IMG/VR virus record: IMGVR_UViG_3300035162_002058
Span: 1 to 33,832 of that record
DNA: 33,832 bases
Origin: a virus
Direction: 5' to 3' (one strand)
In this document: positions 5,264 through 28,146 of the stretch, one piece after another
Layout of the letters: each line of letters begins with the position of its first letter
Numbering within the stretch: position 1 is the stretch's first letter
Translations under genes and position numbers: made by a program
Notes under the pieces: generated by a model
Told to the model about the DNA's origin: nothing
Databases searched by the model: none
The model's input: the letters and a program-made list of their open reading frames with translations, nothing else

Positions 5264-5274
5264 ACTTCACCACC

Positions 5275-6353: not shown

Positions 6354-8204
6354 CTAAAACCCGCTTTCTTTATTCTTACTTGTAGGGTCTTGCGCGGCTC
6401 TAACGCTATCTAACGCTTGTTCTAAAGGAGTCTTGTCTTTACCGTGTTGATTTTTCTTAGGTGATGGCGCACCCGATTGATGAGTTTCCGATGAGATAGG
6501 TGCAGGTCCGTTGTCGCGTTGCCCTGTTCCTTCACCGAGTCCAACTGCGCCACCTTTCTCCATCATCATAATTTGACCGCCTCCCGGTGGTGGGGACGCT
6601 CCCCCGCCGGGTGGAAGCCCACCACCGCCCGGTGGCATCATCGCGCCCCCACCCTGTGGAGGAATCCCGCCGCCCCCCGGCGGCATAGGTGGAGGCATAC
6701 CACCACCCGGCGGCATTCCGCCCGGTGGCATTCCGCCCGGTGGCATTCCGCCACCTGCGGCATTAGGGTCTTGAGGTTGAGGTTCGGGTTTTGTGTAAGT
6801 GAATCGTATGTCACTACCGCCGTCTTCTGTTAATTCGGGCTGGAAACCAAGTTGTTGCATACGCTGTGCGATGTTAACTTCTTGTTCATCGCGTCGTAGT
6901 CTTGTGATTTCATCCTCTTCTTCATTCGGATAAAGAGTTAATGTCCAATCTTCGACACCCATTTGGTCAAGCATTCTTGGGAACAATTCGCGTGAATATA
7001 ACTTCTGTCCCGATTCAACAGCGCGATTCGTAACGAGGATTTGCATTCCTTCATTATTCAGTCCACCGGACTTACCGCTATCCATCATGAATACATTGGA
7101 TACGCCATAGAAAGCCGCTATGCGCATTCGGATTTCATCACGAACTTGCGCGTATTGCATCTCATCAAGACTATCCATGAAACGAACGAACTCAACTTTA
7201 CCACGACCCGATGCTGATTCAATACCAACCTTCGGAATGTAGTGAGGGTCGCGCTCCATCTTCTCTTCTGCACCTTTCCAAAAGGCCGCTGTTGATTGAA
7301 TGTTATCTGTTGTGATAGCAAGAACACCGCGTGGTATTCTTCGCTTTTGATACGCGAGATAAATGTAAGTATCCATCGCTGTGAGTGATTGAGCCTGTCT
7401 CCACATGCTGGCAACAGGTGAGCGACCATACAGTTTAGATGGGTTGAATTTTGATGTGTGTAACACTTCACCGTCGATGTAGTATTGTGTTTTACCACTG
7501 CCAGCAGTATTGATGTAATGAACATCTTGTAATGGGAGTTCACATGAGTCACACTTATCATAGTCACCGTTATGTGGATATGTTTTATCACGATGGATAG
7601 GACATAGAAGGTATCGCCCTCCGCGCTTACCTGCTTTGTCTGCGACGATACGCATGAATGTTGGGTCACCACGGACAAGTTCTTTGACACGGAAAAATTC
7701 TATCTCGCCAGTATCGGGGTCGAGAAAATACTCTTTGATGAGTAATAAAAACGCGTCGTCAACAATATCTAAGTCCCATTCAATCTCTTTCATGACTTCA
7801 AGGAATGATTGGTCCATGCTGTTGCGTTCTTTCATCAACCAACGCGGGTAAATGATTTGGTCAGCGTCGGGGCTATCGAATTTTTCTTTGCCGCAAATTC
7901 GGCATTCTTGCACAGTATCATGTTGATATTCTTCACCACAGTTTTTGCATTTCTTGTGAAACTTCTTTTCCCAATAATACCCGCGACGAAAAATCTCTTG
8001 ACATAGCGTGTTGATTGTAGTTCTTAGGATGATTGATTCTTGAACCGTCGCGTAAAGTGCCGGAATTGAGACACCTTGAACAAGAACAGGTTCTTGGATA
8101 CCCGTCTTCCATAACGGCATCATTGGTTCGGGTGTTGTTCGCCTACTGAACGGCTTCGTCAGCGTTGATAAGAAACGCCCCACTAAGCCTTTTTCTTCTG
8201 CCAT
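6354..8204 (-). CDS. Portal-like protein with two zinc-binding insertions
   Basis: 616 aa. It is called the portal from its place right after the terminase block and from a portal-like body: an N-terminal helical part, a wing/crown region, then an R/E-rich segment (about 340-440) with the AAFYGVSNVFMMDSG and MQILVTNRAVESGQKLY stretches typical of portal stems. Two cysteine clusters interrupt it: C86/C89 with C101/C104, and C201/H204 with C218/C221. These suggest two small zinc ribbons. The tail from about residue 480 is a PPGG/GGM repeat, then an acidic-to-basic disordered end. The portal would form the dodecameric DNA channel at the capsid vertex and dock the terminase. Its ATG overlaps the preceding stop as TAATG. 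Zinc insertions of this kind are unusual for portals. Confidence 0.8.
   Translation of the reverse strand: MAEEKGLVGRFLSTLTKPFSRRTTPEPMMPLWKTGIQEPVLVQGVSIPALYATVQESIILRTTINTLCQEIFRRGYYWEKKFHKKCKNCGEEYQHDTVQECRICGKEKFDSPDADQIIYPRWLMKERNSMDQSFLEVMKEIEWDLDIVDDAFLLLIKEYFLDPDTGEIEFFRVKELVRGDPTFMRIVADKAGKRGGRYLLCPIHRDKTYPHNGDYDKCDSCELPLQDVHYINTAGSGKTQYYIDGEVLHTSKFNPSKLYGRSPVASMWRQAQSLTAMDTYIYLAYQKRRIPRGVLAITTDNIQSTAAFWKGAEEKMERDPHYIPKVGIESASGRGKVEFVRFMDSLDEMQYAQVRDEIRMRIAAFYGVSNVFMMDSGKSGGLNNEGMQILVTNRAVESGQKLYSRELFPRMLDQMGVEDWTLTLYPNEEEDEITRLRRDEQEVNIAQRMQQLGFQPELTEDGGSDIRFTYTKPEPQPQDPNAAGGGMPPGGMPPGGMPPGGGMPPPMPPGGGGIPPQGGGAMMPPGGGGLPPGGGASPPPGGGQIMMMEKGGAVGLGEGTGQRDNGPAPISSETHQSGAPSPKKNQHGKDKTPLEQALDSVRAAQDPTSKNKESGF
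6560..6765. repeat. Low-complexity Pro/Gly/Met repeat in portal tail
   Basis: An imperfect tandem repeat of GGTGGCATTCCGCC-like units (plus strand) encodes GGMPPGG blocks in the portal C terminus. The most regular copies are near 6708-6750. Such tracts are prone to expansion and contraction and are presumably disordered in the protein. Confidence 0.85.
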
Positions 8205-10795: not shown

Positions 10796-12214
10796 TCAAT
10801 CAATCATCCCCGCCATCATATCATCAATGTCAACCACTCGTTCGCGGAATTCAGTAGTAGCCCAATGAGCCAAAGCGAGAGCGATAGCGAAGTCATCGTG
10901 ACGACCAATGCTATCAAGCCGTCCCTTTTTACTCATACCAAACATCATCAATTCGCGCTCTAACTCACTTACTACTGTTCGCGAATTATCATCACCCCAC
11001 GGCAATCGCATTTGCTCGTTCTCAAAGCGTAACACCAACCCCATGAGAAGTGATTCACGGCGTTGGCGTGTGGAGATGAATGTTTTGATAGGGAGGTCTG
11101 TGTCTGCGCGTAGTTCAGTAGCGAACACACGCTGAAAGTTGTTTGCTTCAAGTTCAATCACATCGGGACTGAACTTCGCGTTGAGTCTTTGAATCTCCAT
11201 AATCTGTGTTCGGAAGTCCATATTCTTACGACGAACAACATGAACCAACTCAAGCAATTCGGGGTTGGTTGATGGACGGCGGAGAACAACCATAACCGTG
11301 TAGTCAGCAGACCTGTCCGACGAAATAGCAGGGTCCCAACCGATGAAGTATTGGTCATCGGGGTCACCTGTTTCGCGCTCAATCAGTTTGAGTGTATTGT
11401 CTTTTGCGGTTTGCATCACAGTCGATGGGAACAGACTTGATACATCGTCCATCGGCTCACACAGGTATTCGCGAGCGAATGCAACGGCTGGCATATCAGC
11501 CCTGCGCGCATCCAATGATTCTAAGTCCCAGCGTTCCGGCCAAAGTGCTTCGCCTTTTGTGTTGATGGCTGGGTATGTTTCAACGAGATAACCGTCGCGA
11601 CTCTCAAGTTCTGTGTAAAGGTCAGTTGGTGTGAACGGTGTTCCTACAATCATCAGTTTAGATGTGTGGTGAAGTGTTGGGACAAGAACCTCATAGAACC
11701 AACTCGCGACTCTTTGGAGTTCTGTGTCAGTTGTTCCCCACAGAATGTCGTCACATAGAATGAGGTCGGGGTGGATACCACGAATAGCACCACCAACAGA
11801 CTTCGCGCTAATGTTAGAACCGTTAGAAAAACCGAAGAATGTCTTAGACCATGAATCAGCCTTCTTCATTTTAGCGAGAAACGGCACGCTGTCAATCAAA
11901 TCATTGAGTGTCCGCATGTGGTGTATTGACTGATGAAGACTGTGCGAAATCAATACGGCTTTCGTCTTTGGGTTGAAGGCCGTCTTCCAAAGCATATAGC
12001 CGAGAAAGAGGGTTGACTTACCGTGGTCACGCGCCGCTTTTACACAGTATCGTTTGCGCTCTTCAAGATTATTATACCAGCGTTCGTGATGATGCGAGAG
12101 TTGAAATCCAAGAATCTCTTCAAAGAAGAATTTGAAATCGCGCTTCGCTACTTCAAAGTCAATTTCTTCAATCGCTTCGAGTGATAATGATGACTGCAAG
12201 CCATCACCGCACAT
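10796..12214 (-). CDS. terL: Terminase large subunit
   Basis: 472 aa. It packages DNA into the prohead: ATP-driven translocation plus headful or site cutting. The N-terminal ATPase has Walker A ARDHGKST (61-68), Walker B LILCDD (151-156) and a GTP motif around 191 (coupling motif III). The C-terminal RNase H-like nuclease has Asp294 (GWDPA), acidic residues in VIELEANN (353-360) and HDD (439-441). All expected catalytic acidic residues are present and the length is normal. The ATG at 12214 overlaps the previous gene by 11 bases and has AAGGA 5 bases upstream. It is the best family anchor in the window. Confidence 0.96.
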   Translation of the reverse strand: MCGDGLQSSLSLEAIEEIDFEVAKRDFKFFFEEILGFQLSHHHERWYNNLEERKRYCVKAARDHGKSTLFLGYMLWKTAFNPKTKAVLISHSLHQSIHHMRTLNDLIDSVPFLAKMKKADSWSKTFFGFSNGSNISAKSVGGAIRGIHPDLILCDDILWGTTDTELQRVASWFYEVLVPTLHHTSKLMIVGTPFTPTDLYTELESRDGYLVETYPAINTKGEALWPERWDLESLDARRADMPAVAFAREYLCEPMDDVSSLFPSTVMQTAKDNTLKLIERETGDPDDQYFIGWDPAISSDRSADYTVMVVLRRPSTNPELLELVHVVRRKNMDFRTQIMEIQRLNAKFSPDVIELEANNFQRVFATELRADTDLPIKTFISTRQRRESLLMGLVLRFENEQMRLPWGDDNSRTVVSELERELMMFGMSKKGRLDSIGRHDDFAIALALAHWATTEFRERVVDIDDMMAGMID

Positions 12215-15744: not shown

Positions 15745-17000
15745 CCCATACCACCTCGTCTTACATACAAATCATAGGGGTGAGTTCCCCACATAGTAGG
15801 GTCATCTTCGGGGTCGGTTTCAGTTGGTCCTGTTGGTGCAGATGTCATGCGCTTCGTGCCTTGATTCGGTGTAGCACCACTTGGAGCATCGTCAGCACTC
15901 GCGTCCGCTTTACGCATCAAACGACGCAATGCGTGATTGAGTTGGTCAATGAGTTGTCTGTATTCGATACGGTCGCGAGGTGACATCTTCTGTGATTTCA
16001 AGAACTCTTCGGATGCGAGAATAGCGTCCGATGAACCCAAACCACCAGCGGCCATAGCAGATGCGCCACCACCGAGAGCGATGTCCTTAGAGGCTTCTGC
16101 ACCACCCGGTGTTTTAGTTGTCCTCGGTTGACGGGTTGCTTTACTGTGTGGTTTTGAATCTCTTGAGCCGCGAGTAGCGCGTGGTATTCTCGACTGTGCC
16201 GTGATTGTTGGCATTGGTGGTGTGATGTCTTGTGTAGGAGAATCTTGACGAAGTTCTTGACGAACATCCTGTGCTAATTTTTCACGCGGACTGGTTGAGG
16301 CTCTTGCTTTCGATTTACCCGATGAATAACTCAAAAACCTCGGCCCTGTGGGTGTTGGTCTTCGCGTTCCCATCATCCCAAACGATGTGTAAGGTGCGCG
16401 AGCCGCACTCATTGTCGAAGCGATACCGGGTTGGCGAACATTCCCACCTTTCAATTGCTTTTTGTTAGCCCCTCGCCCTTTGCTTGTTTCTGTGGTCTTC
16501 TTACCTTGCTTTCTTGAACGCTTACCTTTCTTAGCGCGTCTGCGTTGTAAAGAAGTATCAATAGTAGTTGTCTTCTTAGGCTTTTCATCATCGTATTTGG
16601 GTTCATCTTTCTTTTTACGAATCATCTCAAAAGCATCGTCAATGAACGGTGCAGTGGAAAGGAGGATATTCATACCTCCACCTTTTGGATTAGCACCAGC
16701 GTTGGCTTCATTTTGGCCCACTTGACCCGACATTTGCCCCGCTTCTGCTTGTCTCTTCATGTCACTGTCTTCTTCATCTTCCTCATGCTCGTCTTGAGGA
16801 ATTTTTATCTTCATGTGTTGAAGACCTTGTAATTTCTTAGCGCGCTTATCGTTCGTTTCACGCTTCTTAGCATCGTGCTTTGCACGCTCTTCGGAGTCTT
16901 CGCGACCAACAGTTGAGTCTTCTTGTAACTCTTCTGCGCTGTATCGCGGATTGAATTTCAAACCTTTTGTTCCGCCTTCCAGTCCACCAGCAACCATCAT
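15741..17000 (-). CDS. Highly charged, mostly disordered protein
   Basis: 419 aa. It has low complexity throughout: a Lys/Arg/Glu/Asp N-terminal third (an EHEEDEEDSD run near 75), a very basic middle (RRRAKKGKRSRKQGKK, about 155-170), a Ser/Thr/Arg/Pro region, and one short likely folded helical segment (about 330-365, MSPRDRIEYRQLIDQLNHAL). A PPMPTI motif at Met263 resembles the TMPxL/I motif of other proteins here. It is coupled by ATGA on both sides. The basic centre could bind packaged DNA. No family is recognised. Confidence 0.82.
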   Translation of the reverse strand: MMVAGGLEGGTKGLKFNPRYSAEELQEDSTVGREDSEERAKHDAKKRETNDKRAKKLQGLQHMKIKIPQDEHEEDEEDSDMKRQAEAGQMSGQVGQNEANAGANPKGGGMNILLSTAPFIDDAFEMIRKKKDEPKYDDEKPKKTTTIDTSLQRRRAKKGKRSRKQGKKTTETSKGRGANKKQLKGGNVRQPGIASTMSAARAPYTSFGMMGTRRPTPTGPRFLSYSSGKSKARASTSPREKLAQDVRQELRQDSPTQDITPPMPTITAQSRIPRATRGSRDSKPHSKATRQPRTTKTPGGAEASKDIALGGGASAMAAGGLGSSDAILASEEFLKSQKMSPRDRIEYRQLIDQLNHALRRLMRKADASADDAPSGATPNQGTKRMTSAPTGPTETDPEDDPTMWGTHPYDLYVRRGGMG

Positions 17001-17665
17001 TCATCGCCTCCGACTAACTTACCGCGTAACCGCGCCCAAACTTCGGGTGACTCTTTCGCTAATTCAACCTTTAGTATGTTGATGGTCTGTGCGGTTATAT
17101 TTTCAGTCACATTACCAGCCGCGCGTTCTTGCACTCTCATGATGTCTTTGACGGTTTCCCGAACTTCTTTGTGGAGTGAAACGATGTTGCGAACATATTG
17201 AGGGTCGTTACGGTCTGCATCATCGAGAAAATGACCAAGTTCACCGTTCAGTCGCGATAAATTGTTTCGTATGTTTTGCATTTCTTGACCCGACTCGACA
17301 ATAATGATGTCTGCCGCGCCTTTTTGGACAACAGGTTTGAGGTGATGTTTGAGGTGATGATACACACTTGAGTCGGCCATCTGCATATCTTCTGCTATTT
17401 CTGCAACAGTCATCGACGCGTTGAAATATGCCAACTCTAAGTTCTCTCGCTTTGGTGTTGTGCATATTTTACACTCGCTGTTAGAACCCATGTGGTATTC
17501 ACCCATGTGGTTTCGGAAATGGCGGTCGGCACTTCCTTCTCGCCACCCCTTCTGTTTGTCTAAATCCTTTGCAACGATTAACCCAGCCTTCAACATTTCT
17601 TCAACACCGTCGCGTTCGGGGTCTTGACAGAAGTTGCAAGAGGCTCTTGTTATGCGCTCCGCCAT
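16997..17665 (-). CDS. Small-terminase-like zinc/HTH DNA-binding protein
   Basis: 222 aa from ATG 17665. The frame is open further upstream to 18016, but that extension overlaps a convincing plus-strand gene and has no family-like content, so the internal ATG is used. Two Cys clusters are seen: C10/C13 with H49/H53, and C65/C68. A helix-turn-helix follows (MTVAEIAEDMQMADSSVYHH, 85-104, then HLKHHL). The C-terminal half is long helices suited to oligomerisation. The CxIC...R...LE..L...HTH...HxxHHL pattern is typical of phage small terminase or terminase-associated DNA-recognition proteins. It would mark the packaging site for TerL. It is separated from terL by three long genes. Confidence 0.75.
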   Translation of the reverse strand: MAERITRASCNFCQDPERDGVEEMLKAGLIVAKDLDKQKGWREGSADRHFRNHMGEYHMGSNSECKICTTPKRENLELAYFNASMTVAEIAEDMQMADSSVYHHLKHHLKPVVQKGAADIIIVESGQEMQNIRNNLSRLNGELGHFLDDADRNDPQYVRNIVSLHKEVRETVKDIMRVQERAAGNVTENITAQTINILKVELAKESPEVWARLRGKLVGGDE

Positions 17666-17702
17666 AGCAAAGACCAAGTATCGGTAGCAAAAGAGTCTTT
17701 CC

Positions 17703-18041
17703 ATGCGAAAGAGGTTAAAACGCGCTCCAAAAGTAGCCGGTATCCCTATATCTATCTCGACTGCGAGAAGCCTCACGCGAGCCGCGGCTGATATTGTCAC
17801 AAACCAAAGAGTGGACTTGACAGAACGCGAACGAAGATATAACATTTGTTTGAAATGCCCCGAACGGAAACATGACCGATGTAACTTGTGTGGGTGTTTC
17901 TTGAAGACCAAAAGTATGCTCAAGAACAGTGAGTGTCCTATTGGCAAATGGTCAACCTTGTTGACCGAGGCGGCGATAAACGATACCTGTTGCGCTGAAA
18001 CAAACGAAAAGCGCACCGATGAGCCAACTCAAGTCACTTGA
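17703..18041 (+). CDS. Small zinc-binding protein of phage CGCF...CPxGKW type
   Basis: 112 aa, the only plus-strand gene in the left 28 kb. It has SLTRAAADIVTN (23-34), then C49/C52, C60/C63/C65 and C78 in the order ICLKC, CNLCGCFLKTK, ECPIGKW. This is a widespread small phage zinc protein of unknown function; the conserved part ends at Trp83. The last 29 residues are antisense to the end of the minus-strand two-helix membrane gene. It begins 37 bases from the divergent small-terminase-like gene. No clear Shine-Dalgarno precedes ATG 17703. It may be an independently expressed accessory gene. Confidence 0.8.
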   Translation: MRKRLKRAPKVAGIPISISTARSLTRAAADIVTNQRVDLTERERRYNICLKCPERKHDRCNLCGCFLKTKSMLKNSECPIGKWSTLLTEAAINDTCCAETNEKRTDEPTQVT

Positions 18042-18186: not shown

Positions 18187-18774
18187 TCATCGTCCTCCTG
18201 TTGCTAATCCGCGCACTAAAGAACCGAGTCCGCCGCCAACATTCTGCATCATACCGGGGTCAGCCAACGCACCATCCAACATGTTTTGCATACTGCCTTG
18301 ATTTGCCATAGCAACCATCTGTTGGACTTGCATTTGGTTCTGTTGAACCACATTTGATGCGTTATTTTGGAGTTGTGTCTTACTCATGGTAACACTATCC
18401 ACCGTTGGTATTCCTTGAACCGCACTAAAGTCAAACTTGTATCCCTCTCCGTCTTCAACTAAGCGCGCATTTGAAAGCATTGTATGAACAGACACCGCGA
18501 CAACGCTACTCATGAGGTTGATGAGAGGTTGAAAGTTTGTATCGCTCATCAACCATCGGTCAATGAGCGGGTTGGTAGTGATAAGGGCTGAAATAATGTC
18601 CATTTCACTCGGTGGAGGTTGATATTGTTGCTGTCCCCACGGAGTTTGTTGTTGTTGCATACCCATACCCATACCCATATTCTGTGAAGGAACTTGTTGT
18701 TGTCCTCCCGCTAATCCGAGATTCATAGCACCTGTTTGCGCGGGTTGTTGGTTGTTACTAAACGGCCATACCAT
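18187..18774 (-). CDS. Gln/Met/Gly-rich protein with a hydrophobic core segment
   Basis: 195 aa. The N-terminal third is Gln/Pro/Gly/Met-rich (MGMGMGMQQQQ). The middle is likely folded (about 57-125) with a hydrophobic stretch LINLMSSVVAVSVHTML (84-100). The C-terminal third is Gln/Met helices, then a Gly-rich end (NVGGGLGSLVRGLATGGR). GAGGTG lies 5 bases before ATG 18774, and the gap to the preceding gene is 9 bases. It belongs to the GTPase module by position. No family is recognised. Confidence 0.8.
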   Translation of the reverse strand: MVWPFSNNQQPAQTGAMNLGLAGGQQQVPSQNMGMGMGMQQQQTPWGQQQYQPPPSEMDIISALITTNPLIDRWLMSDTNFQPLINLMSSVVAVSVHTMLSNARLVEDGEGYKFDFSAVQGIPTVDSVTMSKTQLQNNASNVVQQNQMQVQQMVAMANQGSMQNMLDGALADPGMMQNVGGGLGSLVRGLATGGR

Positions 18775-18783
18775 GATAACACC

Positions 18784-19674
18784 TCACATGCTCCCATCAT
18801 TTGATTGTGTCGGTAAGGGCATAGCAGTATTTTGTTGCTGTTGCTGTTGTAATTGATGCATAGCGAGCGCATCGAAAAGCAAGCGCGAGTTGTTTCCGGC
18901 TTGAAATTGGCGCATATCGAACACTATCAATACCAAATCATTCGTCCCTGTCGCGGAATTAGCGAAATGCGTAACCGGAATGTTGTCATTTTTCAACATT
19001 TGAAAGAAAGGTTCGTATTTAGCGAGTATCGGTGGCGTATTATCTTTCTTTTTGATACTGCTTATTGGCACTACTACGGTTGAAACACCTCTTTTGAGTT
19101 TGGCTTTGAGTGTGCCATTGGTTCCTTCTTCTTCTTTTTCGTCTTCTTTGAGCCATTTAGTCAATAAATGGTATAAGTGGAGGTGTTCGGGACAGTAAGT
19201 TCCCTTCATTTTACGCCCCGAAGTGACATTTTCGCGGGCTATAAACGCTTCAATTTCACCTGTCACGCCGTTTTTCCAATACAAATCCCATAGAGAATGG
19301 CCGCTTTCTTCGTCAATAACCTGTTCATAGATGTTTCCAGCGAGGCGTAAGAGGTGTTCGACATCACATCCGTCCACTACACAGCGCATTGTGTTGGTAT
19401 TGTAGCGATGTTTGCCTCCCCACCACCTACGAGGCGATAAAATACCTCTTTTTATGGGTCTTAGGAGTCTAAATGCCTGTTTTATGTCTTGACGGCGCGC
19501 TTTTGTCGGGTTTGAGTGCCTTGAAGGGTAAAAATTTACTTGAGGGACTTCAATATGCGAACTCGCGTTCGACATAGCGGCCTGTGCCGTCGCTTGCTGT
19601 TGCATTTGAGCAAGACTCATCTGTGTTTGTGCGGCGAGCGTCAATAAATCGTTTTGAGGTTTGTTTCCAAGCAT
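18784..19674 (-). CDS. Hypothetical protein with Cys/His zinc-like sites, next to the GTPase
   Basis: 296 aa. An N-terminal Gln/Ala/Met helix (10-35) is followed by a basic segment (PTKARRQDIKQAFRLLRP, 56-73), then C98/C103/H107 and C161/H164/H166/H169, which could form one zinc site. A folded alpha/beta C-terminal domain follows (VSTVVVPISS, DLVLIVFDMRQF) and a Gln-rich tail. It starts 4 bases after the GTPase stop, with GGTGAT overlapping that stop as its Shine-Dalgarno. The tight coupling makes it the best candidate partner or effector of the GTPase. That is an inference. Confidence 0.82.
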   Translation of the reverse strand: MLGNKPQNDLLTLAAQTQMSLAQMQQQATAQAAMSNASSHIEVPQVNFYPSRHSNPTKARRQDIKQAFRLLRPIKRGILSPRRWWGGKHRYNTNTMRCVVDGCDVEHLLRLAGNIYEQVIDEESGHSLWDLYWKNGVTGEIEAFIARENVTSGRKMKGTYCPEHLHLYHLLTKWLKEDEKEEEGTNGTLKAKLKRGVSTVVVPISSIKKKDNTPPILAKYEPFFQMLKNDNIPVTHFANSATGTNDLVLIVFDMRQFQAGNNSRLLFDALAMHQLQQQQQQNTAMPLPTQSNDGSM

Positions 19675-19678
19675 TTTA

Positions 19679-20401
19679 TCACCAAGTTAACATTTCTATC
19701 ATTGTTTTTTCAACATTCCAGCCAATTTTAGTAGCCATCATGCTAACGCGACACGGAATACCTGCTTTTTGAAGCCTCCGCATGGCTGGACGGTGCGCGT
19801 CGAACACTTTATGTTCTCGCAAACGGTTCGATTGCCACAATATATTCGCTTTATCATCCCACCACTCATCTGCTTTGTTCGCGACGAGCCATATTTGCTT
19901 AGGAGTGTAGCGTTTTCCGCGCAGTCTTGTTTTCAACGAGCGATACTTCCATCGTTTTTCAATCAATGAGTCAACAAGATATTCAAAACCACCCACCGCG
20001 TCGATTATTTGCGCTCCGTTTCCGTTTAAAACACGCGTGTCAGTCATAAAAATGACTATTTCGACCTGCCTATCGACCATATCATCAATCCAAAGGTTCC
20101 AAAACCGTTGTTGCCCTCCAATATCGGCGGAATGAACGACTCTTTTCTCACCTTGCCAGCGAAGACGCTTGCGTGATGCTGTTGGTAACACATAACCACC
20201 ACCGATGAGTCGCTTTGGGTGCATTGTTCGGTCATCTATGTCATCCATCTCACCGGGAGTTCTCATGAATTGGTCAAGTGTTGTTTTACCAACCATAGTT
20301 GGACCGTAAATTCCAAGTCTGCGCGGCTTTAGATAATTGTAAAGTTCCTTGCCATAAACAACTGCACCCATGAGCGCGCTACCAGCAAATGTAGCAACCA
20401 T
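19679..20401 (-). CDS. Membrane-anchored Arf/Ras-superfamily GTPase
   Basis: 240 aa. ATG 20401 overlaps the preceding stop as TAATG, so it is preferred to the in-frame ATG 54 bases upstream. An N-terminal hydrophobic segment (2-16, VATFAGSALMGAVVYG) likely anchors it in a membrane. The GTPase motifs are complete: G1 GPTMVGKTT (33-41), G3 DIGGQQ (93-98) with the Arf-type GGQ and the catalytic Gln present, G4 NKAD (175-178), and a G5-like SMMATK (220-225). FWNLW after G3 matches the Arf pattern. It should bind and hydrolyse GTP as a membrane-associated switch. A 30-residue insertion lies between G3 and G4. Arf-like GTPases are common in archaea and eukaryotes but rare in tailed viruses. It sits inside a run of membrane proteins. 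Confidence 0.85.
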   Translation of the reverse strand: MVATFAGSALMGAVVYGKELYNYLKPRRLGIYGPTMVGKTTLDQFMRTPGEMDDIDDRTMHPKRLIGGGYVLPTASRKRLRWQGEKRVVHSADIGGQQRFWNLWIDDMVDRQVEIVIFMTDTRVLNGNGAQIIDAVGGFEYLVDSLIEKRWKYRSLKTRLRGKRYTPKQIWLVANKADEWWDDKANILWQSNRLREHKVFDAHRPAMRRLQKAGIPCRVSMMATKIGWNVEKTMIEMLTW

Positions 20402-20646
20402 TAACCCACCCACCCACGGACTTTGTTGTAAAACCACTCGACTGTTCCTTCCCAAATGCTTACATCACTCGCTTGTTCAAACCAAGATATACTCAACGCG
20501 GTAACAACACCTGTTATTACACACAGAACCAGTGCCTTTCCCTTCTCGTAATAAGTGTCGAGTGTGTTTTGAGTGTGCAAAGCGCGTAATGTTGCTTCTG
20601 TCGCATCATCACCGGGTGTTTTGAACAACCAACCCATTAGGCTCAC
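20401..20646 (-). CDS. Single-helix membrane protein
   Basis: 81 aa. One transmembrane segment (about 38-55, ALVLCVITGVVTALSISWF) separates a polar N-terminal domain from a short Trp-rich amphipathic C terminus (WEGTVEWFYNKVRGW). The ATG overlaps the upstream stop as ATGA and its own stop overlaps the GTPase start as TAATG, so all three are read as one coupled unit. It may be an anchor or regulator for the GTPase. No family is recognised. Confidence 0.8.
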   Translation of the reverse strand: MSLMGWLFKTPGDDATEATLRALHTQNTLDTYYEKGKALVLCVITGVVTALSISWFEQASDVSIWEGTVEWFYNKVRGWVG

Positions 20647-21167
20647 ACCTTTTTCTTCGCGTAAGTTCCATCCGGGTTTCTTTTACCTTGATTACCCAAC
20701 TTCATAGGTATCTTGGTATCCGCTTTATGGTTCGGTGCTACTTGTTCTTCTTCATTCATACCCATCAACCCAAGATATTGTTGAACTTCGGGGTCTTTTT
20801 CCAACTCTTCCATCTGCTTCTTGAAAGTTACTTCTTGTTTCTTAATCTCCATCTCCATTTGCGCTTGGGTGAAACGCATCTGTTGGTTTTGCATTTGACG
20901 CGACATGTTGCGTTGCATGTTTGAAATAACAGCGCGTTGGTCCATACCATCCTGTGCTAACATTTTGTAAATAAAATAAGACATACCTTGTAATGTGAAC
21001 GCGCCCATCGTGTATGTTATCGCATTCGTGTAAGTGTCGGGTGATGTAAGCCATAATTCAGCATCGAATACAGCAATCGCGCATCCGACAAGAACGCTTA
21101 CGAATGAAATCAGTCCCAATACCCTCAATTCATCTTTGTTTTGATTTTGGGTGCTTTGTGGTTGCAT
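20643..21167 (-). CDS. Two-helix membrane protein with Gln/Met coiled coil
   Basis: 174 aa from the second ATG (21167). The first ATG (21176) directly abuts AAGGAG and would leave no spacing, while the second has about 9 bases. It has two transmembrane segments (about 20-40, VLGLISFVSVLVGCAIAVF, and 52-72), then a long coiled coil rich in Q, M and E (about 80-130, QMRFTQAQMEMEIKKQE), and a basic tail. It is the first gene of the operon driven from the AT-rich promoter upstream. It probably scaffolds the membrane complex with the 81-aa protein and the GTPase. That role is inferred. Confidence 0.8.
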   Translation of the reverse strand: MQPQSTQNQNKDELRVLGLISFVSVLVGCAIAVFDAELWLTSPDTYTNAITYTMGAFTLQGMSYFIYKMLAQDGMDQRAVISNMQRNMSRQMQNQQMRFTQAQMEMEIKKQEVTFKKQMEELEKDPEVQQYLGLMGMNEEEQVAPNHKADTKIPMKLGNQGKRNPDGTYAKKKV

Positions 21168-21176
21168 AAGTCGCAT

Positions 21177-21307
21177 CTCCTTGAGTAGTGCGTGGCGCGA
21201 AGGCTACATAAGCATATTGATTCACCTTTTTCTTGATATTCTTATATTATTATGATAACAATATAGTAATTATTATTCTTATTAGAACAAAACGATATTA
21301 TCGAGAA
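21177..21307 (-). promoter_or_regulatory. AT-rich promoter/leader of the membrane-GTPase operon
   Basis: This non-coding gap lies between the giant gene and the membrane operon. In the minus direction it has the palindrome CGATAATATCG followed by TTTT (21303-21293, possible weak terminator), then a TATA-rich tract (21288-21230). The tract begins GTTCT, AATAAGAATAATA and ends in ATATCAA, an AAGGTGA site (21228-21222) and an ATG at 21215. The whole block lines up with the promoter/leader at 30032-30106, sharing ATAAGAATAATA exactly. A second Shine-Dalgarno (AAGGAG) serves the 174-aa gene. Confidence 0.65.
21204..21215 (-). other. Three-codon minigene (Met-Leu-Met-stop) with a full Shine-Dalgarno
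   Basis: ATG CTT ATG TAG follows AAGGTGA with a 6-base spacer, in the leader of the membrane operon. The matching leader at 30032-30106 leads into a normal gene. This could be a remnant of a lost gene start or a regulatory leader minigene. Confidence 0.4.
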
Positions 21308-24300
21308 TCAGTTAGGGTATTCATCTTCATTTGAAGCGTAAATACTCTCATCTATTGGTTGATTCAATGTTGGACTTCGCCCATAAGTCACATAGGCAGG
21401 GGGTGTGTATCCAACAGGTGGTTCAACAGGTGGTTCAACAGCGGGTTGTTGTTCATTGGTGTGTTGTAAATTCCTCTCCGCGGCTAACGCATACGCTTCT
21501 GCGTCACCGAACTTTTGAGGGTTGAGAACGGGATGAGACAATTTCATACTCGCTTGTCCTGTTGATATATGACTTTGTAATTCTTCCGGTAATGCTCTAT
21601 TGGCGTATGCTTGTGATACTTCTTCATGACCATCGAAGCCGTCATGCTTCCCATCTTCACCATCTATCACGCCACGGATGTCTTCGCGCATTTTCCAATT
21701 CGGCATTTCATGATATTCTGTCATTCTCTTAACGGATTCGTAATTTTTACGGTCTAATGGAGTGACAGCGCGGTCCCTGCTTTCTTGTAAAATTTCATCT
21801 GCTGGTTTCGCGACAAATGTTTCCGTTGGTTGTTGCACGCCATTTTCATCCGGTTCTGTCATTCCGTGTTTTATGTAACCCATCTCCATTTGCTCGGAGT
21901 CTTCATGGTCCACTCCCTGCATCACACTTGCTTTGAAATCTCTTGGATTCAACTTCACACCACCAATAGTCACACTTGTCGCTAAGTTGACTTTCTTTTC
22001 TAATTGTTCTTCGTCTTCATAACCAGCAACTTTCGCGGCTTCATCTTTCAACAATTGAGACAGACCGCTATCTTCCCCGACCATTAAAGAAAAATTGGAT
22101 TGGTTGATACCCGATGGTATTTTTGGATGGTCGAGAGGGTTGTTAACTCGCGCCATGAAATGTTGAAGTGCTTTACGCATGACATACTCTTGCCACAACG
22201 GTTTAATCGCTTTATTACGCATCGTGGTATATCCTTCATTCAACGCGCGATGTTGACCAATTTTGTTTTCAGCAGTCAATAATGAATTAACATCTGTCGC
22301 ACCAGCGGCTTTGAATGCTTTCATTGCTTCTTCACTGTAAGTCATCGCGCGTTTTTCCATACCAGCAATCATCGGTTTTTCATCGAACTCTTTCAAAATA
22401 CTGTTCAGTTCATCACTAAACATATTGGATGTCTTTCTTGCCACCATTGGTTTTTCGATTTTACTAAGCGCGGTTTTAATTTTCTCCAACTTCTCCGGTT
22501 TGAATTGTTCTGCATCCTCAATTCTCTTGAGCAATCGTGATACCTTCTTGTTACCCGCGAAGAAATTTCTCATTTCTTTATGAGTTACCTCTTTGGGTTG
22601 ATTTTCTTGACCCGGTTCAAACAATCCTTCGCGTATTTCTTTCGATGCTAACATGTGTCCATGATAAGGCGTTAGTGGTTCAAAGTCACCAAAAGTCATA
22701 GGTGCGTTTCCTCCGAAGACATCAGCCATCGTTAGTTTCAAATTACCTTCTTCATCAGTAGGCAACTGTCTTCGTTTAGCGCGTATTGCATTCTGTTCTT
22801 TACTACCCAAGCCACTTATGTCGCTGTAATCATCAACATAGTTCGCTTCCGCGATTTCTTGTAGTTTGTGCATTTTTTCAACCAAATGATGGTCTTCATC
22901 ATTGTGAGCGTCTAAGAATGCAGGGTCGTTGACGATGCTATTGTATAATGCATCAATCTCTTTCTTCATCCCCGGTTGACCATGCACAGCCATTGTGTGC
23001 ATCATTTCACAATGTTTTTTCATCATGATTTCGTGATGTTTTTCCATCGCTAATTGATTGACGGAGTTGAGTTTAATCTCCGGCATAGTGTTCATCTCTA
23101 TCTTCGGCATAGAACCTATTTCAGCAGGGGTGTTGATTGCAATATCCGGCATTGTGTTTGGCGGTCTATCTCTTTCATGAGGTGCGCGTGGTATCTCCGG
23201 TGCATTCGGGTCGATAACCAGTGGTTCGCGTTGCTTCTTTTTGCGCGCTTCACGCATTTCTTCAAATGTTTTGAACTTACCGCTCCCTACATGTTGAGAG
23301 AACATTTGCCAAACTGGTGATTTAGGTGAAAGAACACCTTTCAAATAATCCGGTATTTCACCCGACTGTAACATTTCAGCCTGTCCTAACGCCAGTTGGT
23401 TGAGGTAATCGAACTTTTGATTCACCATATCATTGTGTGAATAGTGGTGATTCTTCCCATCAATTTTATTTCCATCTGCGTCTGTATAACCATCTTGGAT
23501 GTGTTCATCATCTGCTGGGTCGCGCATACCTGTTCCAAAACAATCTCCGCAAAGTCCGTTCGATATTTTACCACCTTGAACATAATCAGCGGAGTGTTCA
23601 CAAGCCGGACACGCGAGTTGTTCATGTTCTCCCGCATCCATTTCATCACCCATAGGGTGTTCGTCATATGAAGCATGACCACGCGGCCTCATTTTCTTCT
23701 CGATATATTTGTTGATTTTCGGGCTATTGCGATTTTCGTCGCGCATACTTGGTATGCGGTGACGAATGTATGAAACTGCTTCATCCCTTGTAACAAACCT
23801 ATGTCCATGACATACACCGCACAATGTTGGCGCGTTGTCTCTCCAATTGGAAACTAAGTTATGGGCTTCAATGTTACCATCTGCTATCGCTTTTTCACTC
23901 CCTTTAGTGAAGTGTGAGTTTTGTTCTCTTCGCGCCGCTTCATCTTCTGTCAACAATCCCAATTCGTTTTCGGTATCGTCATGGTGTTCATGTGGTAACT
24001 CCGATATATTCATCATGCTGAAATCATCAGCAGTCAACTCTTTTCCTATACTTTGAATTGTTTGAGGGTCAAGTGCATCTGCCATATCAGCGTCATGCAA
24101 CATATCCTTTGCGCGCTTAATGTCTTCTTCTGTGAGAGGGAAGCCCATTTGAATACGATGAGCGAGTAATTGATTGATTGAATTGATTCGCGGGATTGCT
24201 TTGTTGTTGGTGATTGACATGACACCTGTTCCAGCCATTTCACCCATTCTGCCGAGTTTATATTTGTCGAGTGAGTGAGTGTAGTCTTGGTCCACACTCC

Positions 24301-27300
24301 CATCTATGTTTCCTTTGAAAACGGAATCATAATCGCTATCACCATACATATCATCGTGTAATTCACTAAGCATACCCATCTTAGCGTGTTCGCTTGCTGA
24401 CTCCGGTGATTTTTGCATCTTGGCGAATATCTTAGCCAATTTGTCACTCGCGTTGTATTTTTGACCACCCGTATATACATCTTTACCGATGAACGCACCA
24501 AGCATGTATTCGTTTGTTCGACTAATGTTATCGTCGCTCGCATCTTTTAACTTGGCGATTTTCTTTTCAGCAGATTTAATCTCTTTCAATTTTCTATTAC
24601 GGAGAGCCAACATAGTGCCATATTTATTTTGAAGTGCCTCACCTTGCTCTTTAATCAACGCTATTTGACCGGGTGACTGATATTCACCGCGCTCTTCTCT
24701 TTCTTCACCATCAGCGTCTTTTACCTTTTTTGGTTTCGTCTTTTCTTCGTTGCTGTCTTGGATTGCCTTTTGTTGCAAATACGCCCTGTATAGGTCTTTG
24801 TAAGAATCAATTTCACGCTTTCTTTTCGCGACAATTCCGCTTTGCTTCTCCACACCCTTAGTGGGTGTAGTAATCATAGCGTTCAACAAATTGCGTCGCT
24901 GTTCGGAGGTTTTCAACGCACCCGGTTTGATTTTCTTACCACCATAAGCACCATCAGCGAGTTCTTCCATGAAATGCATAGCATCAGTGATAGCATTGAA
25001 ACGCGTTGCTACAAGCGTTTTCTTACGCATTGATTCTTGATGTTTGTCAACTGAATCGTCATTATCCATAAAGAATGAAGAAGCAACCAATTCCTTGTTG
25101 CTCATACCTGCTGGTCCACTCGCGATTGAGTTATCTTTTGTTCGGTAAAGTCCAAACTTCTTAAAAATGTTAGCCGCGCGTGGGTTGCCTGTAACGACTG
25201 CTTCTTTGATTCTTCGACGCATTGTTCGCTCTTCATCATTTCTCCATTTTTGTTTGTTAGGAGCGTTTGCTTCTCTCTTCACCAACTTTTTATAATCGTA
25301 AAAGTCATTGTCGGGGAAAATATGCCTCAATATAGAACCAAGTGAAATATCATTTTCACTTACACCGTTAGCGTATAGCGGGTGTTCTTCACCGCCTTGT
25401 TTGTATTCTTTGAGTTGTGGGATTGTTATTGCTTTGTGAGTGTAAGGTGATTTTTTTCCTTTGACGGGAGAATTTATCCGCGCTGTTTCTGCTTCCCTGT
25501 TACCAAAACGGTCTGTGTTGCAAGAAACGCATGTTTCGGGGTCGTGTAAAATATCACGGTGCGATACTTCGGGGTCTTCGTCTTTACTACCCTCTTCTTT
25601 TTGTTCTTGGCGCGCAGTATGGTTTCTGTGGTATTTCTCTTGTTGCTCTTGGCTTTTTTGATTGTGTTCTTCATCAACGGCTTCGCGCATACCTGTCTTT
25701 CTCAAATACTGTAATAGGCGGTCTATCGGGTATGTATTCAAACTGCCATCTTTGCGGGTTTGTGTGGATAATGATTTGAATGCGTCAAGATACCCAACAC
25801 GACTCATATCAGCGTTCGCGTATCTCATAGCCGCACCAAGTAAATCAACATCGGATAATCCAATCTGTTTCATCATATCGTGTTGTCTATTCAAACGAGA
25901 AGTAATGGTTGGGAGTATTTGCCCTAAAGTGCCTATACCGGGAACGCTTTTCATTTTTGGCTCATCACCCGCTTTTGCTGTATTTACTAATTGCGTCGGA
26001 CTCAACATTTCATCAAGTTTATTGTATCGTTTTTTGTCTTCAAGTGTCGCGTTGTCAAGGTTACCAAATGCAATCATATTCTCCGCGGTTAATCCAACAG
26101 CCATCAATTTTTTATTGATTGCTTCTTTTTCTTCATCTGTTTTAGCATCAGCGTTCGCGTATGCTTTGTATCGCAGTTCTCGCATCACGCGACTCATACC
26201 GATGAGATTGTTTGTGAATGCGCTTGTTGCTTGAATTATTGAATTCTCATTCATGCCATGAAGCGCGTGACCAACATCGAAGTCATTACCTGTTAAACCA
26301 TTCAGTTCTGCATCGGGGTTCAATTTGTGTTCATTGACACCCATAGCCATGCGTTGCATTTCATATTCGTATTCGTCAATAACACCTTCTTGCAACTGCC
26401 GCTCAAGTTGCACCATTTTTTGGCTTGGTGTCATGCTTCTATTCCCGCGAACTGATTCAAGTTCATCTTCGGGTTCTAACATAGATGATTCAGTGGCTAC
26501 ACCACCAAACCTCTCTCTTCGCGCTTCACTGGCCCTACCTGCTATCTCTTCTTGTGAACCACCCGGTCCAGCACCTTCGGTAGTCACTGCGTTTTTATCA
26601 CCAAACAGACTACTCAAGAGGCCACCCTCACCCGTAGCGGATGTTAGTGACGGATGAAAACCCACTTGACCAACAGATGATAATTCATCAGCCAAAGCAT
26701 CTCGCGTTTTGTTGCTGAATGCACTTTTTGGGTCTTTCAAATACGGACTAATCAACGAATCGGGCATGTTTGGTGCAATCGAAGACAACCCAAGTTGCTC
26801 CGCGGCATCAGCCATAGAGGGTGTAATTGCGTCGGGTGCTTTTCTTTCTACTATTCCCTTACCGTATTTACCCGCGCGACCCGAAGTTCCGAATGCTTTG
26901 TTTCCGGTTAAAGAAATCATAAAGCCGTTAAAATTACTCATCAATTTCTTGAATGCAGTTTTCTCATCAATTGATTCTTCGCGTGAAATATCTCGCACTT
27001 GATTAAGAATTTGCCTTGTGGTTGAGGATGAAGGTTTGTTAAGAGAGAAACTCGACTGCCCTTCTCTTTGTGGAGAAACTGAACCTTCTTGAAACAACTT
27101 GTCGTAAAATTTGCTCGCTCCACCTTTATCGCGCTCCGCAGTGAATCGCTTATCATCCTTAAAGTTCAAGTTCTCCTTTTGCTCATCGCGCAATTGGTTC
27201 ATCTCTTCTTCAAACGAAGGGTCTTGCATTTTACCAGCGACGCGAATCTTACGCCCCACACTTGGTCTGTAATTGCTTGCAATGCGGTCACTCTTCGGTA

Positions 27301-28045
27301 TATCTGCTGATAGTGTCACACCGAGAGGATGGTCGTATTTGCTAAGGAGTTGGTAAATACCATTGATGTCTTTTTGTTGGTGTCTTCTGCCCTCATTCAA
27401 TGGGTCCGCGATAAATGATGAAATATCAGCGCGTATTCCTTTTGAACCACCCGTAGCGTCTGCTAAAGACCCGTTCATTTCTTCGTCTGCTTTTTGCACA
27501 TCCTTGAGTTCGGGGAACTCATTCGACAACCTCTTGAAATGCATCATAACAGGCCCGTTTAGGAGTGGTTCGTGAAGCATAGCAGGGAAGCCATCTTCAC
27601 GCTCTTGTAGCATCTCATCTTTCTCTTGTCCCAAAGCGCGACCCAAGAGCATGTTGTTGGCGAAAATGATGTCTTCGTAAAATGTAGTCGCGTCTATCTC
27701 TTCTGCTTTGTATCGGCTGACTAAATCGCCCATATAAGGTGCTAAAGACGCGAATCCTTTCTCCGTCTTACCGCCCTTACCCTTTCTGTTATCGTTCGCG
27801 GGGTTAACCACTTTGACTTTCTTGGGTTCTTCTTTAGGAGGTTCTTCTTTAGGAGGTTCTTCTTTAGGAGGTTGTTTCGATGAATCGGTAACGCGCACAG
27901 GAGAAGAAGGTTCAGTCTTTTTTTGCTTCTTGGCTTCCCTTGCCGCATCCCTTTTAGCCTTGCGTGCATCCTTCTTTTTTTGGTTGGTTTCCTTGAGGAT
28001 TAGACCCTCTTCAACCGACTTAACAACACGGACGCTCGGACGCAT
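21308..28045 (-). CDS. Giant hydrophilic protein with DnaJ-like Cys motifs
   Basis: About 2245 aa, with the start set at ATG 28045, which overlaps the stop of a tiny upstream ORF as TAATG. An in-frame GTG at 28069 is an alternative. Order: a basic Lys/Arg/Ala helix (about 20-45), a PPKEE tandem repeat (about 60-75), and long charged helical regions throughout. A CVSC pair lies at 839/842. A cluster follows at 1409-1510: CGVCHGH (1409), CPAC (1479) and CGDCFGTG (1499), like DnaJ-type CxxCxGxG zinc repeats. A linker at 1630-1656 has two NTMPxI motifs and an SMPKI. The end is a Pro-rich tail. No enzyme motif or transmembrane segment is visible. Size and composition suggest a structural or ejected virion protein; it is unrecognised. 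Confidence 0.9.
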   Translation of the reverse strand: MRPSVRVVKSVEEGLILKETNQKKKDARKAKRDAAREAKKQKKTEPSSPVRVTDSSKQPPKEEPPKEEPPKEEPKKVKVVNPANDNRKGKGGKTEKGFASLAPYMGDLVSRYKAEEIDATTFYEDIIFANNMLLGRALGQEKDEMLQEREDGFPAMLHEPLLNGPVMMHFKRLSNEFPELKDVQKADEEMNGSLADATGGSKGIRADISSFIADPLNEGRRHQQKDINGIYQLLSKYDHPLGVTLSADIPKSDRIASNYRPSVGRKIRVAGKMQDPSFEEEMNQLRDEQKENLNFKDDKRFTAERDKGGASKFYDKLFQEGSVSPQREGQSSFSLNKPSSSTTRQILNQVRDISREESIDEKTAFKKLMSNFNGFMISLTGNKAFGTSGRAGKYGKGIVERKAPDAITPSMADAAEQLGLSSIAPNMPDSLISPYLKDPKSAFSNKTRDALADELSSVGQVGFHPSLTSATGEGGLLSSLFGDKNAVTTEGAGPGGSQEEIAGRASEARRERFGGVATESSMLEPEDELESVRGNRSMTPSQKMVQLERQLQEGVIDEYEYEMQRMAMGVNEHKLNPDAELNGLTGNDFDVGHALHGMNENSIIQATSAFTNNLIGMSRVMRELRYKAYANADAKTDEEKEAINKKLMAVGLTAENMIAFGNLDNATLEDKKRYNKLDEMLSPTQLVNTAKAGDEPKMKSVPGIGTLGQILPTITSRLNRQHDMMKQIGLSDVDLLGAAMRYANADMSRVGYLDAFKSLSTQTRKDGSLNTYPIDRLLQYLRKTGMREAVDEEHNQKSQEQQEKYHRNHTARQEQKEEGSKDEDPEVSHRDILHDPETCVSCNTDRFGNREAETARINSPVKGKKSPYTHKAITIPQLKEYKQGGEEHPLYANGVSENDISLGSILRHIFPDNDFYDYKKLVKREANAPNKQKWRNDEERTMRRRIKEAVVTGNPRAANIFKKFGLYRTKDNSIASGPAGMSNKELVASSFFMDNDDSVDKHQESMRKKTLVATRFNAITDAMHFMEELADGAYGGKKIKPGALKTSEQRRNLLNAMITTPTKGVEKQSGIVAKRKREIDSYKDLYRAYLQQKAIQDSNEEKTKPKKVKDADGEEREERGEYQSPGQIALIKEQGEALQNKYGTMLALRNRKLKEIKSAEKKIAKLKDASDDNISRTNEYMLGAFIGKDVYTGGQKYNASDKLAKIFAKMQKSPESASEHAKMGMLSELHDDMYGDSDYDSVFKGNIDGSVDQDYTHSLDKYKLGRMGEMAGTGVMSITNNKAIPRINSINQLLAHRIQMGFPLTEEDIKRAKDMLHDADMADALDPQTIQSIGKELTADDFSMMNISELPHEHHDDTENELGLLTEDEAARREQNSHFTKGSEKAIADGNIEAHNLVSNWRDNAPTLCGVCHGHRFVTRDEAVSYIRHRIPSMRDENRNSPKINKYIEKKMRPRGHASYDEHPMGDEMDAGEHEQLACPACEHSADYVQGGKISNGLCGDCFGTGMRDPADDEHIQDGYTDADGNKIDGKNHHYSHNDMVNQKFDYLNQLALGQAEMLQSGEIPDYLKGVLSPKSPVWQMFSQHVGSGKFKTFEEMREARKKKQREPLVIDPNAPEIPRAPHERDRPPNTMPDIAINTPAEIGSMPKIEMNTMPEIKLNSVNQLAMEKHHEIMMKKHCEMMHTMAVHGQPGMKKEIDALYNSIVNDPAFLDAHNDEDHHLVEKMHKLQEIAEANYVDDYSDISGLGSKEQNAIRAKRRQLPTDEEGNLKLTMADVFGGNAPMTFGDFEPLTPYHGHMLASKEIREGLFEPGQENQPKEVTHKEMRNFFAGNKKVSRLLKRIEDAEQFKPEKLEKIKTALSKIEKPMVARKTSNMFSDELNSILKEFDEKPMIAGMEKRAMTYSEEAMKAFKAAGATDVNSLLTAENKIGQHRALNEGYTTMRNKAIKPLWQEYVMRKALQHFMARVNNPLDHPKIPSGINQSNFSLMVGEDSGLSQLLKDEAAKVAGYEDEEQLEKKVNLATSVTIGGVKLNPRDFKASVMQGVDHEDSEQMEMGYIKHGMTEPDENGVQQPTETFVAKPADEILQESRDRAVTPLDRKNYESVKRMTEYHEMPNWKMREDIRGVIDGEDGKHDGFDGHEEVSQAYANRALPEELQSHISTGQASMKLSHPVLNPQKFGDAEAYALAAERNLQHTNEQQPAVEPPVEPPVGYTPPAYVTYGRSPTLNQPIDESIYASNEDEYPN
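27825..27871. repeat. 15-bp tandem repeat, three copies, in the giant gene
   Basis: The unit GGTTCTTCTTTAGGA (plus strand) is repeated exactly at 27825-27839, 27840-27854 and 27855-27869. It encodes the PPKEE repeats of the giant protein in its disordered N-terminal region. It is a likely site of copy-number variation. Confidence 0.9.
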
Positions 28046-28146
28046 TACTGAATGGGAAGACAACCACACCCTTGAACATAGCGGTTGACGAGATTCATGG
28101 CTGGGATTTTTTTTGGTCCCATGAAAAAAATATCTGTATTTCGCAT
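28045..28146 (-). CDS. Tiny ORF coupled to the giant gene (33 aa, possibly 17 aa)
   Basis: From ATG 28146 the frame gives 33 aa ending in GCGCLPIQ; an internal ATG at 28098 would give 17 aa. Its TAA overlaps the ATG of the giant gene (TAATG), a junction type used elsewhere in this genome (portal, GTPase, 48-aa gene). No Shine-Dalgarno lies close to either ATG, so it may be leaderless. Support is limited to the overlap geometry. It could be a leader peptide for the giant protein. Confidence 0.35.
   Translation of the reverse strand: MRNTDIFFMGPKKIPAMNLVNRYVQGCGCLPIQ

Follow-up and report, generated by a model that had tools for sequence, protein, structure and literature searches.

An Arf-like small GTPase conserved, with putative membrane partners, in the morphogenesis gene cluster of tailed archaeal viruses

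Arf-type switches bend and sort membranes in eukaryotic cells. In Haloferax volcanii, the Arf-like GTPase ArvA, which has an N-terminal amphipathic helix, drives vesicle formation, and vesicle budding needs in addition its operon partners ArvB and ArvC, the latter a Zn-ribbon protein (PMC10927574). The viral GTPases that we matched in BFVD are mostly annotated as Ras, Rab or Ran type and come from giant eukaryotic viruses. These are likewise virus-encoded small GTPases, but they differ from the one described here in type and in virus, and none of them is known to sit beside membrane partners among virion genes. We describe here a divergent Arf-like GTPase of tailed archaeal viruses and suggest, at a little under an even chance and by analogy with such systems, that it acts late in infection as a GTP-driven membrane switch, which would serve assembly at the membrane or release.

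The GTPase was found in a 33.8-kb virus record, which was analysed whole and is referred to below as the window. Its genes of interest lie on the minus strand in the order 2253-aa protein, p174, p81, GTPase, p296, p195, HTH protein, three large low-complexity proteins, TerL, endonuclease-like ORF and portal. The features needed for the argument are as follows.

21177..21307, no strand: A+T-rich gap 5' of p174 (70% A+T versus 55% across the window), with TATAAG on the minus strand
20643..21167, minus strand: p174, 174 aa if the ATG at 21167 is used (ORF call, hydrophobicity, 40-sequence alignment; 128 of 130 loci)
20401..20646, minus strand: p81, a one-TM protein (129 of 130 loci)
19679..20401, minus strand: Arf-like small GTPase, 240 aa, ATG start, with a hydrophobic N-terminal helix and a G domain
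18784..19674, minus strand: p296, conserved partner gene (130 of 130 loci)
18187..18774, minus strand: p195, Gln/Met-rich, of the same cluster (122 of 130 loci)
16997..17860, minus strand: HTH protein with Cys pairs (Pfam HTH_5, E 2e-4, slightly short of the cut-off; 129 of 130 loci)
10796..12214, minus strand: large terminase subunit (TerL), end of the syntenic block and our anchor (Pfam Terminase_6N/6C; phrog_38, E 1e-61)
6354..8204, minus strand: portal protein (phrog_18178, E 6.8e-73; HVTV-1/HCTV portal at 30–31% identity, E 1e-56 to 1e-57)

An initial annotation of this DNA had described 2 membrane proteins ahead of the GTPase in a tailed-virus virion operon, and both points held, with TM segments in p174 and p81 and with HTH protein, TerL and portal of a tailed archaeal virus on the same strand; the HTH protein, judged by its motif and position, is a probable small terminase subunit. 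The order p174-p81-GTPase-p296-p195-HTH is not peculiar to this contig, since it was retained across the loci examined (n=130). Other details of that description needed adjustment. The coupling sequences were given as TAATG and ATGA: the p81 stop and the GTPase ATG do overlap as TAATG, but the p174/p81 junction reads GTGA. Sizes of 174, 240 and 296 aa stood, whereas p81 is more likely 78 aa long, with a predicted start at the ATG at 20637, after AAGGTG. A further gene had been placed within 4 bases of the GTPase stop, and this spacing is correct (19679 versus 19674), although that gene, p296, occupies 18784–19674 and so falls outside the 19679–21167 segment assigned to the module.

Upstream of the module, AAGGAG precedes the p174 ATG (21167) by 8–9 nt and TATAAG lies 79 nt upstream. 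From these signals p174 is likely to be the first gene of a transcription unit, and the gap at 21177–21307 is a candidate promoter of the GTPase module. For the GTPase itself, the alternative TTG start at 20455 (258 aa) is not conserved and was rejected because several close homologues carry stops in that upstream stretch. A fusion of p81 to the GTPase, considered on account of long open frames in L008–L020 and L037–L040, was likewise dropped, as a stop separates the 2 genes.

Because searching with the GTPase would bias a count of its occurrence, we took the terminase as anchor. Among terminase-anchored loci with enough upstream DNA, the GTPase was present in 29 of 29 near and 43 of 43 distant relatives (72/72), in every case 7.8–10 kb upstream of the terminase. 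Mean identity across 9 long genomes was highest within the gene cluster for the GTPase (66%), followed by portal (64%), TerL (63%, partly truncated in the pieces used), p296 (56%), p81 (52%) and p174 (42%). The ratio dN/dS, calculated against 4 relatives, was 0.03–0.05. The gene is therefore real and under constraint, not a chance ORF, and it is a core gene of the lineage, its conservation being no less strict than that of the portal and packaging motor.

Such conservation, together with a same-strand position between a giant structural-type gene and HTH/TerL/portal, would also be expected of an assembly factor that does not bend membranes, i.e., a protein that acts as switch or chaperone when head, packaging or tail parts are assembled, that docks to p174/p81 or the membrane, and that is perhaps present in the virion. 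In favour of this explanation, the neighbouring proteins p195, p419 and p590 resemble virion-type low-complexity proteins. Yet the immediate partners of the GTPase are TM proteins, and the family profile found no match in HVTV-1, HCTV-5 and 2 methanogen viruses, a set of records that includes no positive control; the same profile detects L083 at 4.5e-129. Also, to our knowledge, the well-known tailed phages assemble without a GTPase. We regard a pure assembly factor as rather unlikely.

Three other ORFs of the window deserve mention. At 8204–9595 (minus strand) is an endonuclease-like ORF, with a match to phrog_5046 HNH (E 3e-9) and a LAGLIDADG-like FLDADGYITI motif, which all 9 of 9 long relatives retain in this place between the TerL and portal genes, at 41–82% identity; in HVTV-1, too, the TerL and portal genes have an HNH gene between them. 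The 2253-aa protein (21308–28069, minus strand) has no Pfam match but contains several CxxC pairs, among which CGVCHG and CGDCFG are reminiscent of DnaJ-type zinc repeats; it diverges fast and is undetectable by BLAST in distant relatives. An ORF of more than 1755 aa (2–5266, minus strand) runs past the end of the window and also lacks a Pfam match; its C-terminal part is conserved downstream of the portal in relatives.

With regard to the virus lineage, full-length relatives are 90–118 kb in size. Among 16 long relatives, 12 encode a family B DNA polymerase (PolB), and every one of the eleven that reach 90 kb does so; a chaperonin was found in 9 of 10, and PCNA was not found in the virus genomes. 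Marine Group II viruses have PolB, a chaperonin and a comparable genome size (Nishimura et al., PMC5332604; ICTV profiles PMC10768690, PMC12999244), and on the strength of this match we assign the lineage to the magroviruses. A Druskaviridae-like portal is also among the reported traits of those viruses (PMC5332604, PMC10768690). The window is a fragment and enters this assignment through relative G001 (TerL 95%, portal 89%). To judge from these viral features, the host is very probably a Marine Group II (Poseidoniales) archaeon, a member of a group that is abundant in the ocean. Three homologues carried by cellular bins, L082 (Cytophagaceae MAG), L083 (Asgard MAG) and L084 (Maricaulis MAG), lie on contigs with the viral gene order; a cellular origin was rejected, and we take them to be mis-binned viral contigs for this reason.

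Searches of IMG/VR recovered 142 relatives with a single query and 205 and 214 with alignment queries; homologues are 54–97% identical, and the family counts below refer to 151 distinct homologues. The GTPase contains G1 GPTMVGKT (residues 33–40), G2 RT (58–59), G3 DIGGQ (93–97) and G4 ANKAD (174–178), which bears out the complete G1/G3/G4 set with DxGGQ that had been read from this sequence. Where SAK/CAT would be expected, a G5-like SMMATKIGW is found, and MATxIGW is present in 143 of the 151. We observed the P-loop GxxxxGK[ST] with its Lys in 150/151, the sole exception, L042, probably being truncated before G1. D-x-[GA]-G occurs in all 151 and ANKAD in 149, and the G1 Lys, T59 (G2) and D93 (G3) are invariant in the family alignment.

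The G3 Gln, which had been named beside the G1 Lys as a residue that homologues should keep, is less constant than the Lys: position 97 is Q in 104 homologues, E in 39, D in 7 and H in 1, and the tree implies at least 9 changes. Since Gln is thus replaced by Glu, Asp or His in 47/151, one cannot suppose that the family as a whole depends on Gln catalysis of the strict Arf type. An apolar residue never occurs there, however, from which we infer that a water-orienting role may be retained, with turnover differing among members. Ras Q61E is known to be active.

These counts bear on 2 further explanations. The protein might be a non-working GTPase, its P-loop fold being kept solely for nucleotide sensing or structure; the loss of Gln in about a third of homologues would suit such a protein, as would the model, in which residues 37–46, 48–51 and 55–60, including switch regions, have pLDDT below 50. 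This appears extremely unlikely when set against the invariant Lys, Thr and Asp and the nearly universal ANKAD, and against a Gln position that always holds Q, E or D or, once, H, as fits a water-orienting residue. Alternatively, the protein could be a decoy directed at the host, a mimic of a host Arf/ArvA-type GTPase that captures or blocks trafficking, division or vesiculation factors, for example in superinfection exclusion or to stop vesicle loss. Euryarchaeota do possess Arf-like GTPases that drive membrane budding (PMC10927574), and the repeated Q/E/D exchange would fit altered cycling. A host-specific decoy would not be expected, however, to show strict conservation and fixed partner genes throughout a lineage, and we consider this explanation improbable.

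The GTPase escapes annotation because single-sequence searches return nothing useful, as we observed with Pfam, PHROG, NCBIfam and PDB; in particular, Pfam Arf does not match the window GTPase itself. Assignment to the small GTPases, and to the Arf type among them, is supported by profile, fold and motif. When the viral family was aligned by hhalign with 5 Asgard Arf proteins, the probability was 98.4% (E 8e-15, 158 columns), compared with 0.6% for a terminase P-loop ATPase used as control. Searched against 99 Asgard genomes at E <= 0.01, the family profile matched only itself and 6 proteins: the best Pfam family of the 3 that were scanned (L219, L220, L221) is Arf (E 7e-11 to 5e-16), and the remaining 3 have the Arf-like DxGGQ...LW motif. 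The nearest PDB relative of L221, an Asgard Arf-like protein, is Arl8. As a separate observation, about 100 additional residues, conserved among them (IRTLECxxC ... HxDHxRIxYF), extend the N-terminus of the Asgard Arf-like GTPases L220, L221 and L224.

Among the viral members, Pfam Arf matches 15 of 45, the most of any family, with a best E of 0.006 that lies under Pfam's curated cut-off; Gtr1_RagA matches 3 of 45 weakly, and for L083 the NCBIfam model small_GTP gives 6e-5, also below its cut-off. The AlphaFold (AF2) model (pLDDT 73, pTM 0.72) has Arl8b as its best structural match (Z 14.2), followed by Gtr of EGOC (13.4), the tubulin-cofactor GTPase CIN4 (9edt_G; 13.1) and RagD (12.6); most Ras/Rab proteins score about 11–12, and 986 of 1000 chains have Z >= 8. 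VIA matches to the G-alpha chains of GPCR complexes were disregarded (rmsd about 9). Finally, counted from the G3 Asp, positions +10/+11 are LW (DxGG-x6-LW) in 151 of 151 homologues and likewise in the Asgard Arf proteins. By these criteria, the protein is a divergent Arf-like small GTPase.

The membrane anchor proposed in the initial annotation is less secure than the Arf-type G domain. The N-terminus forms a hydrophobic helix (residues 2–24 in the model) in which apolar or small residues continue without a break for only about 16 positions, with a best 15-residue Kyte-Doolittle mean of 1.86; it is a putative membrane anchor, although short for a TM helix. Of the partner proteins, p174 contains two hydrophobic segments, one clear and the other weaker, followed by a Met/Gln-rich region that is predicted to form a coiled coil; p81 shows a single clear TM segment and a conserved N-terminus, FKTPxDDxxExTLR. 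The third, p296, had been called zinc-like: invariant C98, C161 and H164 (CPEH) are indeed present, and it is a possible zinc protein, zinc binding being a prediction. Its core, from about 50 to 180, is confidently predicted and matched nothing in the PDB (best Foldseek E 0.8, VIA Z 3.2), a result that should not be taken to indicate a new fold.

In some members further small ORFs lie between the GTPase and p296, besides an AbrB/SpoVT-like short ORF (SLRTTIPxWxVxQ) seen there at L058 8715–9773, L124 8715–9402, L126 8715–9316, L083 3661–3915 and L078 2293–2532. In a divergent branch (L051, L053–L057, L059, L060, L062, L065–L067, L069–L073 and others), sequences resembling p225 and p65, two low-complexity ORFs of the window, occur 2–5 kb upstream of p174 and not downstream of TerL; this similarity may be an effect of Lys/Ala-rich composition.

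Membrane proteins within a morphogenesis cluster could also indicate an entry factor, a module that either travels with the virion or is expressed immediately, and that acts on the membrane during genome delivery; the very large neighbours (2253 and over 1755 aa) would then possibly be injected. The GTPase would, however, have to work from the cytoplasm before it is expressed, and we think entry very unlikely.

A membrane switch of late infection, the reading we favour, might operate as follows. Late in infection, a timing suggested by gene position, the GTPase would be produced together with the small membrane proteins p174 and p81. In its GTP state it would lie on the host cytoplasmic membrane by way of the hydrophobic N-terminal helix, held or recruited there by p81/p174, and would engage p296 as effector or regulator; GTP hydrolysis would reset it. 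Such a cycle could gather p296 and virion parts at the membrane, or deform the membrane, with particle assembly at the membrane or release as the outcome, in the manner of Arf/Sar and ArvA. Membrane binding, the effector role of p296 and the assembly or release function are, like the timing, deduced rather than observed. In a stronger form of this proposal, magroviruses would reshape the cytoplasmic membrane of the archaeal host, for assembly or for release without lysis, by means of an Arf-type GTPase cycle of their own and membrane partners dedicated to it. We hold this form to be possible but on balance doubtful; tailed viruses normally exit by lysis, which counts against budding. If it is true, a tailed virus encodes an Arf-like vesiculation machine.

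No match was found in 50,697 phage records, either by tblastn with the window GTPase or with an Asgard Arf protein as query, and Asgard Arf proteins matched no GTPase family among the PHROGs. The main texts of PMC10160649, PMC5332604 and PMC8651126 and the ICTV profiles do not mention the GTPase; the supplements of Philosof 2017, Zhou 2023 and Prabhu 2025 may annotate one. What is new is a viral family and a context for a known kind of protein. A GTPase switch conserved like the portal and packaging motor points to an undescribed step in the virus cycle, for which G-domain mutants and the partners p81, p174 and p296 offer handles. Also, the presence of an Arf-like GTPase in viruses of non-Asgard Archaea is relevant to how membrane-trafficking GTPases arose and spread.

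In comparison with known viruses, the relatives resemble Magrovirales/Marine Group II viruses in genome size (about 90–110 kb), PolB, chaperonin and related morphogenesis genes. The haloarchaeal Druskaviridae (HVTV-1) share a related portal (30–31% identity) but not the module: upstream of its TerL, HVTV-1 has an HNH gene, a hypothetical protein and replication genes.

Among cellular GTPases, the viral protein shares with Arf/Arl (Arl8, Arf1, Asgard Arf-like) the G-domain fold, DxGGQ in most members, LW at +10/+11, NKxD and a hydrophobic N-terminal helix. In contrast to Arf/Arl, residue 2 is Val in the window protein and not a myristoylated Gly, the interswitch Trp before the G3 Asp is replaced by Ala, Ser or Thr in aligned members, additional residues are present near G2 as well as in the interval from G3 to G4, the family falls below the Pfam Arf cut-off, its Gln is not universal, and it is virus-encoded. 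Rag/Gtr proteins are similar in DxGGQ and in structural score (Z 13.4 for Gtr in EGOC, 12.6 for RagD), yet the viral GTPase ends with the G domain, without a C-terminal roadblock-type domain, and the Pfam count is weaker (3/45 versus 15/45 for Arf).

The likeness to ArvA-ArvB-ArvC lies in an Arf-like switch that has an N-terminal helix and shares its operon with a protein containing Cys; the viral partners, however, are 2 TM proteins and p296. Profile searches ruled out p296 as ArvC or ArvB, and at E <= 10 none of 10 relatives of 90–118 kb contained ArvB (DUF2073/OapB, PF09846) or ArvC (DUF2072/OapC, PF09845), the Haloferax volcanii control being positive for both. For these reasons the parallel is one of analogy: the viral GTPase may work like ArvA, without being called ArvA.
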